A DNA stretch of 46,266 nucleotides, from positions 1 through 46,266 of IMG/VR virus record IMGVR_UViG_3300022848_000018, one strand, 5' to 3'. Position numbers and translations under genes: made by a program. The notes beneath the pieces are model-generated. The model had not been told where the DNA came from and did no database searches. It worked only from the letters and a program-made list of their open reading frames with translations. Every line of letters begins with the position of its first letter. Position 1 is the first letter of the stretch. Positions 1 through 46,266 of the stretch are shown piece by piece. This stretch comes from a virus.

Positions 1-340
1 ATGGGAAGGCAGTTAGAGACGAGCAACCACGCCAAGCGTCGGAGAAATTAGTTCCAGCGGAGACATCTAGCAATGGGAAGGCAGTTAGAGACGAGCAAGC
101 ATACCAAGCGTTGGGAAAATTAGTTCCAGCGGAGACATCTAGCAATGGGAAGGCAGTTAGAGACGAGCAACCACGCCAAGCGTCGGAGAAATTAGTTCCA
201 GCGGAGACATCTAGCAATGGGAAGGCAGTTAGAGACGAGCAAGCATACCAAGCGTAGCCGAAATTAGTTCCAGCGGAGACATCTAGCAATGGGAAGGCAG
301 TTAGAGACGAGCAACCACGCCAAGCGTAGCCGAAATTAGT
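1..340 (-). repeat. 72-bp tandem LRR-coding repeats, left-hand set
   Basis: Units start at 1, 73, 145, 217 and 289 (the last diverges after about 340). They are almost identical at nucleotide level except for a window of about 16 nt, which encodes the residues on both sides of the invariant Ala-Trp. Read in protein order, the variable pairs are GY-AW-RG, GY-AW-YA, SD-AW-RG, PN-AW-YA and SD-AW-RG. The array continues at the right end of the window. Because assembly of such repeats is error-prone, the true copy number may differ. Confidence 0.93.
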
Positions 341-1252
341 CACGCTTCCAAACACATCTACGGCGCCGAGTGCCTCGAATGCAGCGACAGCCAATGCTTT
401 ATCCGCTGTCGACAACTCCGCGTCGATCATCATCGCGGCATAGATTTTGGTGCCCGGTAGATATACCCCACCTTGTACTTGAGAGAACGCCCCGGCAGAC
501 GCCGCTACCGAATATGTAGCAACGCCCCAGTCAGTTGCTTGGATATAGGTTCCAGTAATCCCGCCCGATGGAATAGTAACGACCAGATCGTCACCCGCCT
601 TGTCAACTGTCCAATACCAAGGCGGGCCACCGGTCAGCGCCGGGCGGCTGGCCCCAGTGACTTGGTAGGCATGGTTGCCGGAGATTTCCCTGACCGTCAG
701 AGCATCAACGCTACCGACAAAATTAAGATCAGCGCGAATGATGAGGGCGGTCCCATTTGCTCTGAAGATTTTCGAGATTGAACCATTCGCCGAATAATCA
801 CCGGACTCTTGTGTCCCAAAGACAATTGCGACATTCCCCGCGCTGTAGGCGGATACGGTCAACTCCGCCTGATAAAATTTACCGCTGACGAGAGGCGCAA
901 TGCTGGCCGTAAGGTCGCTGTCTCCTACTTGAGTGCCGTCACTAGAGGCCGTACCAGACCCGATTGCCCACCCTGTGCCCTTGCCCCAGTTGCTATCAGC
1001 GTCAAACCCGCCATTGACAGCCAACTCAGCCCCAATCACCACCCCCTGACTGCGGTCCAACACCAAACCAACCGGGTCAGTCGCAGCATCGACGGCGGTT
1101 ATTCCCGCGCTCGTCTCATACTGCAACGCGATGCCGCTTTGCCGAAAAGCCGGATCGATCTTGTCGAACAGGAAGCCAGCAGCACCATACTTAACGAACA
1201 GCTTCGCCAGCAGGTCACCACCGCCAAGAAGTCTTCTGCGCCGTCGACTCAT
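1..1252 (-). CDS. LRR tail/receptor-binding protein, N-terminal part (gene continues at 46266)
   Basis: The ATG at 1252 opens a frame with no stop down to base 1. It continues in frame at 46266 and ends at 45752, giving about 588 aa in total. Residues 1-60 look like a virion-anchoring head. Residues about 70-200 begin with a NGGFDADSNWGKGTGW-type segment and resemble the beta-sandwich carbohydrate-binding modules of phage appendages. From about residue 304, 24-residue repeats start (NF-xx-AW-xx-CSSLTAFPLLDVSAGT), of the BspA/DUF285-like leucine-rich type. Expected role: adhesin at the tail, binding the host surface. It follows head and connector genes in the late operon. The gene contains only two GANTC words (about 804 and 1246), unlike its neighbours, which suggests transfer. 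Domain assignments are by pattern only. Confidence 0.85.
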   Translation of the reverse strand, partial: MSRRRRRLLGGGDLLAKLFVKYGAAGFLFDKIDPAFRQSGIALQYETSAGITAVDAATDPVGLVLDRSQGVVIGAELAVNGGFDADSNWGKGTGWAIGSGTASSDGTQVGDSDLTASIAPLVSGKFYQAELTVSAYSAGNVAIVFGTQESGDYSANGSISKIFRANGTALIIRADLNFVGSVDALTVREISGNHAYQVTGASRPALTGGPPWYWTVDKAGDDLVVTIPSGGITGTYIQATDWGVATYSVAASAGAFSQVQGGVYLPGTKIYAAMMIDAELSTADKALAVAAFEALGAVDVFGSVTNFGYAWRGCSSLTAFPLLDVSAGTNFGYAWYACSSLTAFPLLDVSAGTNFSDAWRGCSSLTAFPLLDVSAGTNFPNAWYACSSLTAFPLLDVSAGTNFSDAWRGCSSLTAFP

Positions 1253-10036: not shown

Positions 10037-10126
10037 CTAGAAGTGCGCGACAATCCAGCCAATTGAGAATCCGACAAGTGGAATGAATAGGAGCCAGAAT
10101 AAGCCGGGGAGTGGTCTATCGCTCAT
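10037..10126 (-). CDS. 29-aa single-pass membrane peptide
   Basis: The ATG at 10126 lies inside the end of the 90-aa gene (whose stop is 10118-10116), so the two overlap by 11 nt. The peptide begins MSDRPLPGLF and then has a hydrophobic span of about 18 residues (LFWLLFIPLVGFSIGWIVA) ending in HF. This is a typical small integral membrane peptide. A close relative of its first nine codons recurs in the mini-ORF at 10385-10450. The function is unknown; a membrane role such as superinfection exclusion or holin-like activity is speculation. Confidence 0.55.
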   Translation of the reverse strand: MSDRPLPGLFWLLFIPLVGFSIGWIVAHF

Positions 10127-10388
10127 CGAGGTCAACTCCCTGCAAAGCGTTGAACGCTTCGACTCGATGCAATTCAGCATGATAATTCCACAATTTCAGC
10201 ACAAGTGGTTTGAGTTCGTCCCAATCTTGCCATGAGGTAGAGCCAAGTTCCGAAAGCTTCTCGTTCTTCGATTCCTCGGCTACCTGCGCAATCCGAATAC
10301 TCGTGTTGATCATGCGCTCAACAGAGCAAGTCGACAAGTTGCGTTTGTCAGCGTCTGACAGTTCTAGGATCGGTGATGCGTAGATCAT
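10116..10388 (-). CDS. Unknown 90-aa protein of the small-gene cluster
   Basis: Helical and soluble, with no Cys motif beyond a single Cys (LSTCSVERMINTSIRIAQVAEESKNEK) and a Trp-rich middle (SWQDWDELKPLVLKLWNYHAELHR). The ATG at 10388 overlaps the stop of the preceding mini-ORF (ATGA) and is preceded by CGGAGTCAAATAA, where the SD overlaps a GANTC word. The same leader precedes the 101-aa gene. Not recognised. Confidence 0.7.
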   Translation of the reverse strand: MIYASPILELSDADKRNLSTCSVERMINTSIRIAQVAEESKNEKLSELGSTSWQDWDELKPLVLKLWNYHAELHRVEAFNALQGVDLDER

Positions 10389-12520: not shown

Positions 12521-12764
12521 TATGCTGCTAAAGTTTAAGGGGTTGACCCCCTAGGAGGAATTACCCCTTCGCGGTCTAAGCCAGAGTGGCAATGGAATCA
12601 TTAGCGCCTTTAGGCGAAACGTATGTATCAAGCGCTTATCAATGGAGTCAATTGGGCCGGTAGGTCGCCCTGAGCGCCCTGAGCGCCTTGGCGATGTGTA
12701 TGAGCATATGCTTTGCTGTAATAGAATCGATCCCGCCTTGGCGTAGTCTTGCTCTACGAGCTAT
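12521..12764 (+). other. Structured leader of the early operon
   Basis: No firm gene. It contains a GGGG-TTGA-CCCC hairpin (12539-12550), an orphan AGGAGG (12553-12558) with no start codon at usable distance, a GCGCC-TTTA-GGCG hairpin (about 12604-12616), and repeated CCCTGAGCG words near 12668-12690. GGCGTAGTCTTGC at about 12740 recurs near 13098. A 23-codon frame with ATG at 12592 and stop at 12663 is possible but lacks a good SD. A regulatory leader is likely; its type is unknown. Confidence 0.4.
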
Positions 12765-12806
12765 ATGAATATGAATATGAATATGAATATGAATATGAAT
12801 ATGAAT
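12765..12806 (+). repeat. Tandem ATGAAT hexamer repeat (7 copies)
   Basis: Seven perfect copies of ATGAAT lie immediately upstream of the first early gene. Read in frame they encode (Met-Asn)7-Gly-Ser-stop, a frame that ends at the ribosome binding site of the downstream gene (GGGAGC). Copy-number change would alter the spacing between promoter leader and gene, and it presents an array of seven start codons. Confidence 0.95.
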
Positions 12807-21625: not shown

Positions 21626-22204
21626 ATGGCTGACTCCAAGCAACCAGTAAAAATCCCACCTGGAATGCTGAGCATGTTTGCGAAGCAAAAGCCTAAGGTC
21701 GAGCCGGAGCTGGTTGAATCAGAGCCTGTCGAGTCCAAAGCACTCGTACCGGCCAAGTCCAAGGCGGTTGTTATACCTGCCTCGGTGAAGATAGATTTAC
21801 CCGCCAGTGCGCCATCGGAGAACAAGACTCAGGAATCAACACCTGTGAACTTCCGGGAGGCATTGGATAAGCTCGACGGTTTGATGAGTCAGGAGTTCGA
21901 TGCTATCCTAGTCGCGGCGGCCAGGGATATAGTGAAGCGCACGATGATCGAGCTTCGCGAGTACCCTGAGTATGCCGGAATCGTGACCGATGGTGACGTC
22001 CGCAACGTGATGATCTTCCTGAACCGGACCGTCCAGACTGCGAAGGAATCAGTTACAATAGCCGCCGACAAGAAACGGAAGTCAACGGCGAAGAAGAATC
22101 GTGTGCAGATAGACGCCAACATGGCTTCCCTGCCATTGAACCTGGACGCCCTTGGTAACTTCGATGCAAGTGCCGTCGATGATGTGTTTGGATTCAAGAA
22201 ATGA
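21626..22204 (+). CDS. Unknown 192-aa protein, precedes the Fe-S nuclease
   Basis: The first 75 residues are Pro/Glu/Lys/Ser-rich and probably disordered (repeated VEPELVESEPVESKALVPAKSK). The rest is helical (FREALDKLDGLMSQEFDAILVAAARDIVKRTMIELREYPEYAG) with a basic patch (ADKKRKSTAKKNRVQ) and a short acidic/aromatic end (DASAVDDVFGFKK). It is coupled by ATGA to the nuclease. The disordered N-terminus plus C-terminal acidic tail resembles accessory or interaction proteins. Confidence 0.72.
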   Translation: MADSKQPVKIPPGMLSMFAKQKPKVEPELVESEPVESKALVPAKSKAVVIPASVKIDLPASAPSENKTQESTPVNFREALDKLDGLMSQEFDAILVAAARDIVKRTMIELREYPEYAGIVTDGDVRNVMIFLNRTVQTAKESVTIAADKKRKSTAKKNRVQIDANMASLPLNLDALGNFDASAVDDVFGFKK

Positions 22205-23208
22205 TCGAGCATGGAATCCAAGGCGGATCGTTATTACCCGGCAAGCGCCAGGAGATATTCGGTCTCACTCCGAAGGACTTGATCATCACGAGTCATTCGA
22301 TCGACAATCTGTTTGACTACTGCCCGCGCAAGTTCGAGTTCGTATCGACTTACACGCACAAGCCGGTCGATACTGAATCAGGCTATGCCGCTGATGTTGG
22401 TACGGCCTTGCACCGTGGGACTCAGGCATGGTTGATGGCGAAGCATGACGGCGCCAGCGAAGAGGACGCTAGAATCGTAGGCTCCTGGGCGTTCGTATCA
22501 TCATTCCCGTGGCTCGCCAGTGAGAGAATCACTAACCAGACCCGCGGGTTTGAGAATGCCTGCATGATTCTCGACATGTGTTGGAGCCACCCATTCTGGG
22601 ATGAGTGGGAACTCGTTAAGATTCGTGTTGACGGCGAAGAGCGCTGGGCTGTCGAAGTTCCGTGGGTTCTGATTCATAAGTCCTTTGGCCCAACTAACGA
22701 CGGCCGTTACTTCGCGACCCAAGGGACCGTTGACTTTGTGATGCGCAATCGACTCAGTGGAAAGATCTGCTCGATCGACATGAAAACGACAATCTATGAG
22801 CGGAATCTGAGCCGAGCGCTCTACAAGTATTCAGGCCAGCAGGTCGGCTACGGGCAGGTTGTTGAGGCTTTGCTCGGCCGAGTCATCGAGGAGCTGACCG
22901 TCTATTATTTTGTTGCCCGATTCTCGTCGACCGAACCCTCGATTGAGATACTTGATTTCGTCAAGACTCGCGAGGACTTGGAGGACTACTGGCTCGATAA
23001 GGTTGACCGCCTCGATCGTATGATGCACATGGTTAATGCCCAGCGATTCGTTCGTAATAACGGCGGCTGCTTCTCATATAACTACGAGTGCCAGTTCTTC
23101 GATATCTGTGGGACTCGTGACCGTAGCATGGTCGAAGCATGGTTCCAGGATACGATGAACGCGGTGCCGAGAACCCACCCCGATTGGTGGATAAGGTTGG
23201 AGATCTGA
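22201..23208 (+). CDS. PD-(D/E)XK nuclease of Cas4/AddB type with Fe-S cluster
   Basis: 335 aa. Nuclease core: His71 in DVGTALHRGTQ (motif I), Asp178 in QGTVDFV, Asp193-x-Lys195 in SIDMKTT, and the QxxxY motif in SGQQVGYGQVV. Four cysteines, Cys41 (YCPRKF) and Cys290, Cys297, Cys303 (CFSYNYECQFFDIC), match a 4Fe-4S-binding layout of Cas4/AddB-type nucleases. It probably resects DNA ends for recombination together with the Sak4-type ATPase downstream. There are no Cas1 or Cas2 genes, so a CRISPR role is not indicated. Confidence 0.85.
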   Translation: MIEHGIQGGSLLPGKRQEIFGLTPKDLIITSHSIDNLFDYCPRKFEFVSTYTHKPVDTESGYAADVGTALHRGTQAWLMAKHDGASEEDARIVGSWAFVSSFPWLASERITNQTRGFENACMILDMCWSHPFWDEWELVKIRVDGEERWAVEVPWVLIHKSFGPTNDGRYFATQGTVDFVMRNRLSGKICSIDMKTTIYERNLSRALYKYSGQQVGYGQVVEALLGRVIEELTVYYFVARFSSTEPSIEILDFVKTREDLEDYWLDKVDRLDRMMHMVNAQRFVRNNGGCFSYNYECQFFDICGTRDRSMVEAWFQDTMNAVPRTHPDWWIRLEI

Positions 23209-23593: not shown

Positions 23594-24010
23594 ATGAGCA
23601 CTCTATCCGATACCCAGAACGAGTTCGAGCACGCACTTGATTCGTTCCTCGGGAACGTCAAGAAAGCGGAGGATCAGCTCCTGAACGAGTTGAATAATCT
23701 CCGCGAGATTCGTATGCACCTCGGCCTTCCGAATCCTGAGTGGTCCATTGATCACCGGGACTACACCGGGCGTAAGACTCCGGAGCCTTCGGCCGCTTAC
23801 GATCCCGAAGAGGACGCAACGGACGACACGGAGAAGAATCAAATGGCCTACGAGCCGATCGACCCCGAGCCGGATGAATCGGTGGACGAAGAGACTTGGG
23901 ACGTGACAGTCGCGCCGAATCCAGAACCGCCAGAGCCACACATTAGTTCTGATGAGGAACTAGCCCATCGGCTTGAAGCCCTTGGAATCAAACCTCGAAA
24001 GGCAGGCTGA
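23594..24010 (+). CDS. Acidic coiled-coil protein (138 aa)
   Basis: The ATG at 23594 is preceded by AAGGGGACTCC (GANTC in the leader). Residues 1-45 are a helix suited to a coiled coil (NEFEHALDSFLGNVKKAEDQLLNELNNLREIR). The rest is highly acidic with Pro (DPEEDATDDTEKN ... DPEPDESVDEETWD), then a short C-terminal helix (SDEELAHRLEALGIK). It may bind the adjacent ATPase or SSB; unproven. Confidence 0.72.
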   Translation: MSTLSDTQNEFEHALDSFLGNVKKAEDQLLNELNNLREIRMHLGLPNPEWSIDHRDYTGRKTPEPSAAYDPEEDATDDTEKNQMAYEPIDPEPDESVDEETWDVTVAPNPEPPEPHISSDEELAHRLEALGIKPRKAG

Positions 24011-24011
24011 C

Positions 24012-25037
24012 ATGGGCCACCTCGATTTCTCTGACGAGACGGGCCTCGTGATTCCTCAGCACCTCCTGCTCATCGGCCAGACTAAAGCCGGTAAGAGTCG
24101 GTACATTGTCGAGGCAGTCAAGGATGGCTACGAATGTATCTTCGTTGACGCCGACAATAGTCTGTCTACGATTCGCGATGAGCTGAAGGACAACAAAGAA
24201 GCTCTCGCCCGACTCCATTACTTCGCCCCGTCCAACATGGAAGTATTCGTCGTCAATCTTCTGAACGAAGGAATCTTCCGCTGGAATGAAACTCGCAACT
24301 CCGTCTACTCAAGGGCCAATGCGGCACCTACTGATCGACTCGCGCAGATCATACCATCGAAGATACCGAGCCGAGTTATCTTAGCGATCGACTCATGGAC
24401 CTCGCTGACCTACTCGATTCTACGCAATAGGGCGGCGGCGCTCAAAGTAGACCTGACTGAGATCGACCGCTACTCCCGCGAGATCTACGGTGGCGCAGGA
24501 TTCCAGACGACGGGCATAGCTCAGGTGATTCAATCACTCAGGCACCATGTCATCGTCTTGGCACACCCAGCTTCATATGAGATTAAGCAGAAACCGAAGG
24601 GAATCGTTGGTCAGATCAACGAGAAGGACATGCGCATCCTTGAGGTCAAGCAGGTGCCGATCTCCACTTCGCTTCCGCATGGACTCACGATCGGTAAATA
24701 CTTCTCTCAGATCGGTAACATGTACGTCAAAGACCCTACGAACCAACGAGTCCTGGACTTCAAGATCGACGCGAATAGGATCGGTGGCGGGACTCCAGGC
24801 GGCATCGGCGACCCGATGAAAGAATACCGGTACTCAAAGTTATTCGGGCTGCCGAAGGTGGACCCAGAAGAATATGACGGTTGGATTCGTTATCTTACCG
24901 CCGAAGAACTCGCTGAGGAAACTGCGGCTAAGGCAGCAGGTAAGCCAGCGAGCAAAGTGATTCAGCGGCCACAAGTCGTGGCGGGCGGATTGGTTACGGC
25001 CAACAAACCGACAACCGAATCAGCCACTGCCAAGTAA
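24012..25037 (+). CDS. Sak4-type RecA-like ATPase (recombination)
   Basis: 341 aa from the ATG at 24012, one base after the previous stop; an in-frame ATG at 23973 is unlikely. Walker A LIGQTKAGKSR (20-30), then a beta strand with ECIFVDAD, and Walker B RVILAIDSW (Asp127). The sequence continues with a HVIVLAHPASYEIK strand and Gly-rich RIGGGTPGGIGD loop. Phage Sak4 proteins promote single-strand annealing and usually lie next to an SSB, as seems to be the case here. The C-terminal 40 residues are Ala/Lys/Thr-rich. Confidence 0.78.
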   Translation: MGHLDFSDETGLVIPQHLLLIGQTKAGKSRYIVEAVKDGYECIFVDADNSLSTIRDELKDNKEALARLHYFAPSNMEVFVVNLLNEGIFRWNETRNSVYSRANAAPTDRLAQIIPSKIPSRVILAIDSWTSLTYSILRNRAAALKVDLTEIDRYSREIYGGAGFQTTGIAQVIQSLRHHVIVLAHPASYEIKQKPKGIVGQINEKDMRILEVKQVPISTSLPHGLTIGKYFSQIGNMYVKDPTNQRVLDFKIDANRIGGGTPGGIGDPMKEYRYSKLFGLPKVDPEEYDGWIRYLTAEELAEETAAKAAGKPASKVIQRPQVVAGGLVTANKPTTESATAK

Positions 25038-39868: not shown

Positions 39869-40894
39869 TTAAATTGCGACGTCGCTGAGTCGTTCGAATA
39901 TCAGCTTAGCGGCGCATAACGTGCCCCAACCTGATTTACCTTGGTATTCAAGCGACGTCGTGTCACACCGTTGCTGGAATCGAAGTACGCTAGTTTCCGA
40001 CAGATTCAGATAGCCATCGACACGAGCCTCACGCTCAAAAAGCGCATCAAGACTGTTGAAACCGACATTGCCTGCGAACGCGTTAGCGGACCCAGGAATC
40101 GCGACTGCAGCAGCAGTAGAGTTATACAACCGGCAGCCCACCTTGATCTGGTTATTGGTGTCAGTTTCGTATAGACTCAGAAAACCACCAACCTTATATA
40201 AGCCTTCAGGCAAGGTAATAGCATCCCCAGCTACTGATGCTCCTGCGATTCCATTTATCTTCTCCACAGAAAGCGTACGATCTGACCAGGAACCACTGCT
40301 GACCGATGGGCCATTGGAGGAAGTATACTCCTGTGCTAGCTCAAGCACTTGAGTCGCTCTGACCTGAATATGAGCATAGGCGGCTTGCTTGACTCTAAGC
40401 GAGCTCCACAAATCATAGTCTGTCCTGACCCCAGTCTCAGCATCCTCTTGGCTAAGCAATTCCATGGCCAGGAAGGTAAGAATCTGGGCCTGTGTAAGCG
40501 CGATAGGAATACCTACGTCGCCACTGATGTTACCCATGAGTCGCTGATCGGCGATATCAGCGAAGCTAACGCTTGGATTGCCGCCGATTCCAGCCTCGTT
40601 AGTAATCTCAAGACCTGTGCCGACGCCTAGCTCGCGAATCGCATACGTGGCCTCACCAGTACGAACCACGATACCAGTGCCCGCCTCAGGCAGGCCCCCA
40701 CCAAGCGGATCTTCGCCAGCGGATCGAAATAACGACACTAGTTGATCCAGCGATGGGAGTCTCTGGCCACCAGGCGTAACGCCATCATGCAGACGCAACT
40801 CATTCCGAGTCGTGTCGATCGTAACCTGCCTTGCGGGACCAACATAAAGATCAGCATCTTCAGTAGGGCCGCCTGGGAACTGAACAGTTTTCAT
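39869..40894 (-). CDS. Tail fibre-like protein (341 aa)
   Basis: Residues 15-45 contain QVTIDTTRNELRLHDGVTPGG, the start motif of many phage fibres (Mtd-N-like, with a DT-LRLHDG-T core). A helical linker (TQAQILTFLAMELLSQEDAE) leads to a C-terminal beta-sandwich (residues about 190-340) of the C1q/TNF-like kind by pattern (SLSEKINGIAGA-type turns and YKVGGFLSLYETDTNNQIKVGCRL). It is probably a second adhesin. The start overlaps the propeller gene (ATGA). Confidence 0.65.
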   Translation of the reverse strand: MKTVQFPGGPTEDADLYVGPARQVTIDTTRNELRLHDGVTPGGQRLPSLDQLVSLFRSAGEDPLGGGLPEAGTGIVVRTGEATYAIRELGVGTGLEITNEAGIGGNPSVSFADIADQRLMGNISGDVGIPIALTQAQILTFLAMELLSQEDAETGVRTDYDLWSSLRVKQAAYAHIQVRATQVLELAQEYTSSNGPSVSSGSWSDRTLSVEKINGIAGASVAGDAITLPEGLYKVGGFLSLYETDTNNQIKVGCRLYNSTAAAVAIPGSANAFAGNVGFNSLDALFEREARVDGYLNLSETSVLRFQQRCDTTSLEYQGKSGWGTLCAAKLIFERLSDVAI

Positions 40895-45751: not shown

Positions 45752-46266
45752 TCAATATCCCCCAACCACAGTCACCGTCCAGCTTCGCGACCGGAGAGCG
45801 TCGATTGCCGTATTTCCTGTGGCCGATGGAGCACTAGATGTTCCACCCGTTATATTGAGTGTGCCGCTAGATGTTCCCGCTGCCGCTATGGATACGAGGA
45901 TATTATCAACTGACGTTGCAGATAGCGCACAACCGTCGAAAGCAAGAGTAAAGTCTGTTGCGGTCGAGGTGTTAAACATTGATGCTGGGAATGTGGTTAG
46001 AGACGAGCAACCAAACCAAGCGTGGCTGAAATTAGTTCCAGCGGAGACATCTAGCAATGGGAAGGCAGTTAGAGACGAGCAACCAAACCAAGCGTGGCTG
46101 AAATTAGTTCCAGCGGAGACATCTAGCAATGGGAAGGCAGTTAGAGACGAGCAAGCATACCAAGCAACGGAGAAATTAGTTCCAGCGGAGACATCTAGCA
46201 ATGGGAAGGCAGTTAGAGACGAGCAAGCATACCAAGCGTTGGGAAAATTAGTTCCAGCGGAGACAT
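45752..46266 (-). CDS. LRR tail/receptor-binding protein, C-terminal part (gene begins at 1252)
   Basis: The frame enters from base 1 and runs to the TGA at 45754-45752. This part holds four LRR units: PNAWYAC, SVAWYAC, SHAWFGC and SHAWFGC, the last followed by TTFPASMF. The C-terminal cap is TATDFTLAFDGCALSATSVDNILVSIAAAGTSS, a GTLNITGGTSSAP turn, and AIDALRSRSWTVTVVGGY, a frequent ending of phage LRR appendage proteins. No GANTC word occurs in these 515 nt. Confidence 0.85.
   Translation of the reverse strand, partial: VSAGTNFPNAWYACSSLTAFPLLDVSAGTNFSVAWYACSSLTAFPLLDVSAGTNFSHAWFGCSSLTAFPLLDVSAGTNFSHAWFGCSSLTTFPASMFNTSTATDFTLAFDGCALSATSVDNILVSIAAAGTSSGTLNITGGTSSAPSATGNTAIDALRSRSWTVTVVGGY
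45985..46266 (-). repeat. 72-bp tandem LRR-coding repeats, right-hand set
   Basis: Units start at about 45985, 46057, 46129 and 46201; the last is cut at 46266 after 66 nt. Joined to base 1, one unit would lack CTAGCA (6 nt), keeping the frame. They belong to the same array as 1-340. Total visible units: nine. Confidence 0.93.

Follow-up and report, generated by a model that had tools for sequence, protein, structure and literature searches.

Recombination between tandem repeats as a probable source of variable words in a putative LRR-like phage fibre

The stretch of DNA that was analyzed, a viral contig of 46,266 nt (the window), has both of its ends within one 72-nt tandem array, which is part of a single gene on the minus strand. 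The units of this array share an almost invariant frame, and nonsynonymous change between them is confined to four codons around a conserved Ala-Trp pair (AW), which together specify a four-residue 'word'. Near-clonal relatives carry the same gene with a different number of units and a different pairing of half-words, and a tract copied from one unit to the next is visible within the array of another relative. We consider it fairly probable that the gene encodes a phage fibre or adhesin with a variable-length LRR (BspA/DUF285-like) solenoid, and that this solenoid is diversified by recombination between its repeats together with selection on the four-residue words.

Layout of the array gene and its product

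Each unit comprises 24 residues and can be written as a frame (FPLLDVSAGTNFxxAWxxCSSLTA) that holds the word xx-AW-xx. Using TRF, 4.7 copies of the 72-nt unit were recovered at the first end of the contig and 3.8 copies at the other (Table 1), and in gene order the words read GY-RG, GY-YA, SD-RG, PN-YA, SD-RG, contig break, PN-YA, SV-YA, SH-FG and SH-FG. A preliminary description of this DNA had proposed nine 72-bp units, nearly identical except around Ala-Trp, with two variable modules, one on either side of AW. Both points were confirmed, the count of nine taking in the units at the other contig end, and the reading of the words likewise confirmed that GY before AW pairs with both RG and YA and that SD-RG alternates with PN-YA. 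The seven internal units vary in only 9 columns, all within a span of 18 nt (P ~1e-5 for so narrow a span if 9 columns out of 72 were drawn at random). Outside the words they show no nonsynonymous and one synonymous (TTC/TTT) difference. The first unit deviates in its 5' half and the last at its 3' end.

Table 1. Positions of the array gene, its repeats and candidate recombination genes in the window.
Feature	Position	Strand	Basis and remarks
Array gene, 5' part	1..1252 (ORF 1252..2)	-	N-terminal region of ~300 aa and first five words, then off the contig end; ORF list, words, uninterrupted homologue L013
72-bp array, first five units	1..340	-	TRF and blastn with one unit
Exonuclease	22201..23208	+	phrog_1218 exonuclease, E 9e-11; candidate recombination partner
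AAA_24-like ATPase (possible Sak4-type annealase)	23973..25037	+	Pfam PF13479, E 9e-4, below the curated cut-off; candidate repeat-recombination partner
Array gene, 3' part	45752..46264	-	Four units and conserved C-terminal cap (TSVDNILVSI...GGTSSAPSATGNTAIDALRSRSWTVTVVGGY); ORF, cap conserved across relatives
72-bp array, last four units (PN-YA, SV-YA, SH-FG, terminal SH-FG)	45996..46266	-	TRF and word reading
99-nt contig-end sequence recurring within the other end	46168..46266	-	Branch; the count of repeats is a lower limit

The C-terminal part of the gene opens with 99 nt that are found again inside the N-terminal part; beyond them, the N-terminal copy leads on to SD and the C-terminal copy to SV. 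This is most simply read as a branch of the assembly graph (k=99) that arose because the SD-RG/PN-YA dimer is repeated. Given this shared branch, nine units is a minimum and the dimer is present at least twice. Six nucleotides (TGCTAG) are missing between the contig ends, with register and reading frame kept. That both ends belong to one gene follows from the relative L013, in which the gene is found in one piece.

No Pfam domain was matched by the protein of the window or by that of L013, and among 12 relatives one matched LRR_5 and one DUF285, both weakly. A structural model of the repeat domain was confident, with a pLDDT of 81.5 and a pTM of 0.78, and the full-length model was poor in the N-terminal 280 residues. 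Foldseek comparison of the model to the PDB returned mostly LRR proteins, with weak scores (E no better than 1.8e-3, TM ~0.2-0.3), and a sequence search of solved structures gave weak matches to LRR proteins only, including the lamprey variable lymphocyte receptors. On basis of the matches of the relatives, the repeat-domain model and the Foldseek results, the array protein may tentatively be grouped with the LRR proteins.

The array gene is located within the structural/lysis block. Its homologue in the cultured phages P12024S and P12024L is annotated as 'similar to putative tail fiber protein' and the relative in Synechococcus phage S-CBWM1 as 'putative tail protein'. Judged by where the gene lies, how these cultured phages are annotated and how the array varies, the protein is a candidate for receptor binding. 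A second fibre-like gene is present at 39869-40894 on the minus strand, for which weak similarity was found to PF18454, the N-terminal domain of Mtd (E 0.004), and to the tail fiber phrog_24210.

Array changes among close relatives

Two contigs from datasets other than that of the window are near-clonal to it. Outside the array, L039 (12,940 nt; Ace Lake, Antarctica, MEGAHIT co-assembly 3300035698, PMC8542988) differs from the window by 4 SNPs in 12,466 nt and L013 (4,755 nt) by none. L013 spans the whole array with seven units (GYRG, GYYA, SDRG, SDRG with a Ser-to-Pro change, PNFG, SVYA and SHFG), versus at least nine in the window, and the half-word PN is joined to FG in L013 and to YA in the window; the difference is 2 nt and yields a half-word that already exists. 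Variation of repeat number and of module combinations, which the preliminary description had proposed to measure, is thus observed among relatives. In L039 the order of the words is that of L013, and the last base suggests one more unit. When the arrays of L039 and the window are aligned without gaps, 12 differences are seen in 340 positions versus 0.11 expected at the rate of the flanks, and these probably reflect a few recombination events and not 12 mutations. With flanks so nearly identical, the differing arrays mean that the number of units and one pairing (PN-YA versus PN-FG) turn over more rapidly than the sequence on either side.

The four SNPs that separate L039 from the window outside the array all fall within 48 nt (window 10073-10120), in or beside small minus-strand ORFs (10037-10180 and 10116-10388). 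The window further contains a perfect hexamer repeat, (ATATGA)7.3, at 12763-12806, and the L039 contig stops at 12806, the last base of this repeat, hinting at a second assembly break or at copy-number variation. A search for further close relatives with the MCP as bait returned the contig of L039 only, and a nucleotide search with the first 5 kb of the window in an annotated phage collection gave no match.

A direct trace of copying between units was observed in another pair of relatives, L046 and L047, which show no differences in 1,386 nt of flanking sequence and 14 in 432 nt of array. Eleven of the 14 fall in one stretch of L047, the 41-nt surroundings of which are identical to the unit located 72 nt upstream and start at the Ala-Trp codons. 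In this way, the second half of a word was copied from the adjacent unit and FQ-RG was changed into FQ-RN.

Change on a larger scale was found in P12024S and P12024L (L120/L121; JQ823122, JQ823123), two cultured flavobacterial phages of the same host. Upstream of the array ~99.8% of their sequence is shared (8 mismatches in ~3,400 nt), after which 33 mismatches in 131 positions and a 69-nt (one-unit) indel occur at the array, before the two sequences come together once more in the cap. In this pair, the array was replaced as a block along with its surroundings. Likewise, in L061/L075, L064/L118 and others, flanking stretches that are 97-99.8% identical enclose unrelated words, and phages with near-identical genomes are documented to swap variants of a receptor-binding gene (PMC7468147). 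One may argue that the array is exchanged through homologous recombination between related phages, in the manner of ordinary tail-fibre mosaicism, in which case the words were imported, the identical frames reflect recent duplication and internal shuffling is not needed. As the explanation for the window we hold this to be unlikely. A foreign array would carry a different frame, whereas the window and L013 agree in word order and frame sequence and differ by the duplication or loss of units and by one altered half-word, and the donor of the L047 tract is present verbatim in the adjacent unit. The best-supported account is one in which unequal recombination or slippage and unit-to-unit copying are accompanied by the occasional acquisition of an entire array from a related phage.

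In eight other groups of near-identical phages the arrays were identical within the group, which implies that array turnover is episodic. The idea, raised in the preliminary description, of a built-in generator of variants driven by gene conversion between repeats can therefore be retained in part. Conversion agrees with the clean tract in L046/L047, although the array of the window may instead have been made by crossover, slippage or import. Unit number and one pairing do differ between near-clones, but a dedicated generator beyond ordinary homologous recombination and selection would be a further assumption, and the eight unchanged groups speak against a generator that runs constantly. Some of the variation, as in P12024S/L, is replacement of the whole array.

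Several arrays show peculiarities of their own. Multi-unit block duplications are present in L088, L114 (IL-YN SS-RN YA-RD, twice) and L118 (QE-FN NF-YN NA-QS, twice). In L018 two LRR-array genes of 16 and 18 units adjoin in one phage contig and could exchange units. A 23-residue variant of the unit, in which NN replaces the Cys-containing stretch and the variable positions are unchanged, occurs in L022, L024 and P12024S/L. The divergence of the P12024S/P12024L pair lies, within the stretch compared, mainly at the tail-fibre LRR array, and the pair could serve as a laboratory system for this question.

Words, frames and alternative origins of the variation

A profile scan of the viral contigs of one collection yielded relatives of the array at 448 loci, 80 of which were kept. 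A scan of bacterial genomes recovered two loci only, both in a single MAG, so that in these collections the family belongs mainly to viruses. For 34 regularly spaced arrays we found a word pN of 0.55, a frame pN of 0.11 and a frame pS of 0.44, implying that most arrays are old and that their words are saturated. In the window the word pN was 0.45, the word pS 0.10 and the frame pS 0.03. Calculated pairwise and with recombination not modelled, pN/pS amounted to 4.5 for the word codons of the window, to 1.16 for those of the family (saturated) and to 0.25 for the frame. Nonsynonymous change, which the preliminary description had proposed to compare between the variable sites and the frame, is concentrated at the four word codons. 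A similarly low frame pS (0.00-0.07) together with a high word pN (0.45-0.53) was seen in the window, L013, L112, L108 and L091, from which it follows that homogenised frames with divergent words arose more than once.

The homogenisation is also apparent from the frame identity, which in the window is 0.992 within the array versus 0.705 to the nearest other array. In all 52 arrays compared, the identity within the array exceeded the mean value between arrays, and in 28 of these it exceeded that to the nearest other array. A four-gamete test of the halves before and after AW gave incompatibility in the window and in all ten relatives tested, although repeated selection of the same residues can have the same effect, and in the relatives breakpoints also part words from frame markers. 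On a scale running from full linkage (0%) to free assortment (100%), the number of distinct pre/post pairs stands at ~70%, and 411 of 488 words are distinct.

A helical wheel places the variable residues opposite the conserved core, so that they are perhaps merely unconstrained; the repeats could then be a structural spacer and the words tolerant surface positions that drift without function. Relaxed constraint alone should not give the difference between word pN on the one hand and word pS and frame pS on the other, and, with the reservation that this argument is less than decisive given the homogenisation of the frame, we regard drift in a spacer as very unlikely. Selection for diverse words seems the more plausible cause of their variety in the window.

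A break of the contig inside the array, with ends that share exactly 99 nt, raises the suspicion that the assembler failed to resolve the repeat and produced chimeric words or a chimeric word order. The halves before and after AW are only 6 nt apart, meaning that each word is read directly, and five of the six distinct words of the window occur in the same relative order in the contigs of two other datasets. Moreover, L013 crosses the array unbroken and the cultured phages (P12024S/L, S-CBWM1) are free of doubts about metagenome assembly, P12024S and P12024L differing at the same place. An assembly artefact is thus highly improbable.

Mutation of the words by a diversity-generating retroelement (DGR) via a template repeat was rejected as highly improbable: all word codons of the window have the form NNY, with most of their variation at the first two positions, resembling mutated AAY codons, but the variable third positions are C or T only, words in the family contain many non-NNY codons (~25% ending in A or G), RVT_1 was unmatched at E<=10 in the window record and at E<=0.1 in the records of 30 relatives (controls matched; most records are possibly incomplete), and a blastn search of the window record with one unit found the copies of the array only, and no template outside it. 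The preliminary description, which had assumed a mechanism without reverse transcriptase, is in agreement with these searches.

Proposed mechanism and comparison with known systems

Repeat recombination could operate as follows. The long identical DNA frames would allow units to pair out of register, whereupon ordinary recombination or slippage would add or remove units and move words. A breakpoint within the shared GCTTGG would join a half-word before AW to a new half after it, and the same exchange between units would keep the frames identical. Selection for binding to the host surface would then retain diverse words, the residues of which are predicted to be exposed. One may speculate that the exonuclease and the AAA_24-like ATPase (Table 1) serve this recombination. 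The phage can probably re-tool its binding surface by ordinary recombination and not by a mutation machine. If true, this provides phages with a simple route to new receptor specificities that is free of reverse transcriptase. The family is found in cultured flavobacterial and cyanobacterial phages as well, and the short array, words that are legible in long reads and cultured hosts make the speed of re-tooling by recombination alone measurable. Arrays of this type disrupt assembly from short reads and are probably more common than current reports suggest.

No description of such arrays in phages was found in open-access papers, which is no proof that none exists. The lamprey variable lymphocyte receptors are built from LRR modules that are recombined into differing binding surfaces, by programmed somatic assembly from a cassette bank and with the variable residues on the concave sheet. 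Recombination of LRR modules is shared with the phage array, which shows no sign of programmed cassette assembly or of variable residues on a concave sheet. DGRs that act on phage receptor-binding proteins, like the tentaclins (PMC10743442), similarly target diversity to a few exposed residues of an adhesin; these have a C-type lectin fold, whereas here reverse transcriptase and template were not found and repeat recombination would take their place. In tail-fibre tip mosaicism and flexible receptor-binding modules of phages (PMC7468147) the receptor-binding region varies among near-identical genomes, as here, although there whole gene variants swap and here units and half-units do so too.

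With regard to the repeat itself, the array resembles the PARCEL/DUF285 repeats (TIGR02167) and the BspA-type LRR (Pfam LRR_5) in repeat length, conserved hydrophobic positions and variable number. In the passages concerned, Roske et al. 2010 (PMC2996958) describe PARCEL as ~25-residue tandem repeats of surface proteins, with conserved hydrophobic and highly variable hydrophilic positions and presumed shuffling; the comparison of near-clones and the evidence from tracts, both present here, do not feature in those passages. The phage array differs in that variability is limited to four positions around Ala-Trp, in having its own C-terminal cap, in its putative role as a phage fibre and in the lack of a Pfam match for the protein of the window.

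The closest precedent is the fungal HNWD genes het-d and het-e of Podospora anserina, which act in non-self recognition (Paoletti et al. 2007, PMC1805685), the repeats of which evolve in concert and contain four codons, paired around a conserved residue, that are under diversifying selection. Common to both systems are concerted tandem repeats, variable in number, with four codons in pairs around a conserved residue that are reshuffled between units. The fungal genes specify WD40 propellers of intracellular NLR-like proteins, form a multi-gene family and have been proposed to involve RIP hypermutation, whereas here a single gene for an LRR-type phage fibre was seen. The array may thus be viewed as working like the HET-D/E system while being unrelated to it. 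Whether phages of several lineages have a reverse transcriptase-independent diversification of this kind, in which LRR-type fibre arrays use identical frames as recombination handles and words and halves are reshuffled, lost, gained and selected within the population, is in our estimate an evenly balanced question; if so, these arrays would be the phage counterpart of fungal HET-D/E.
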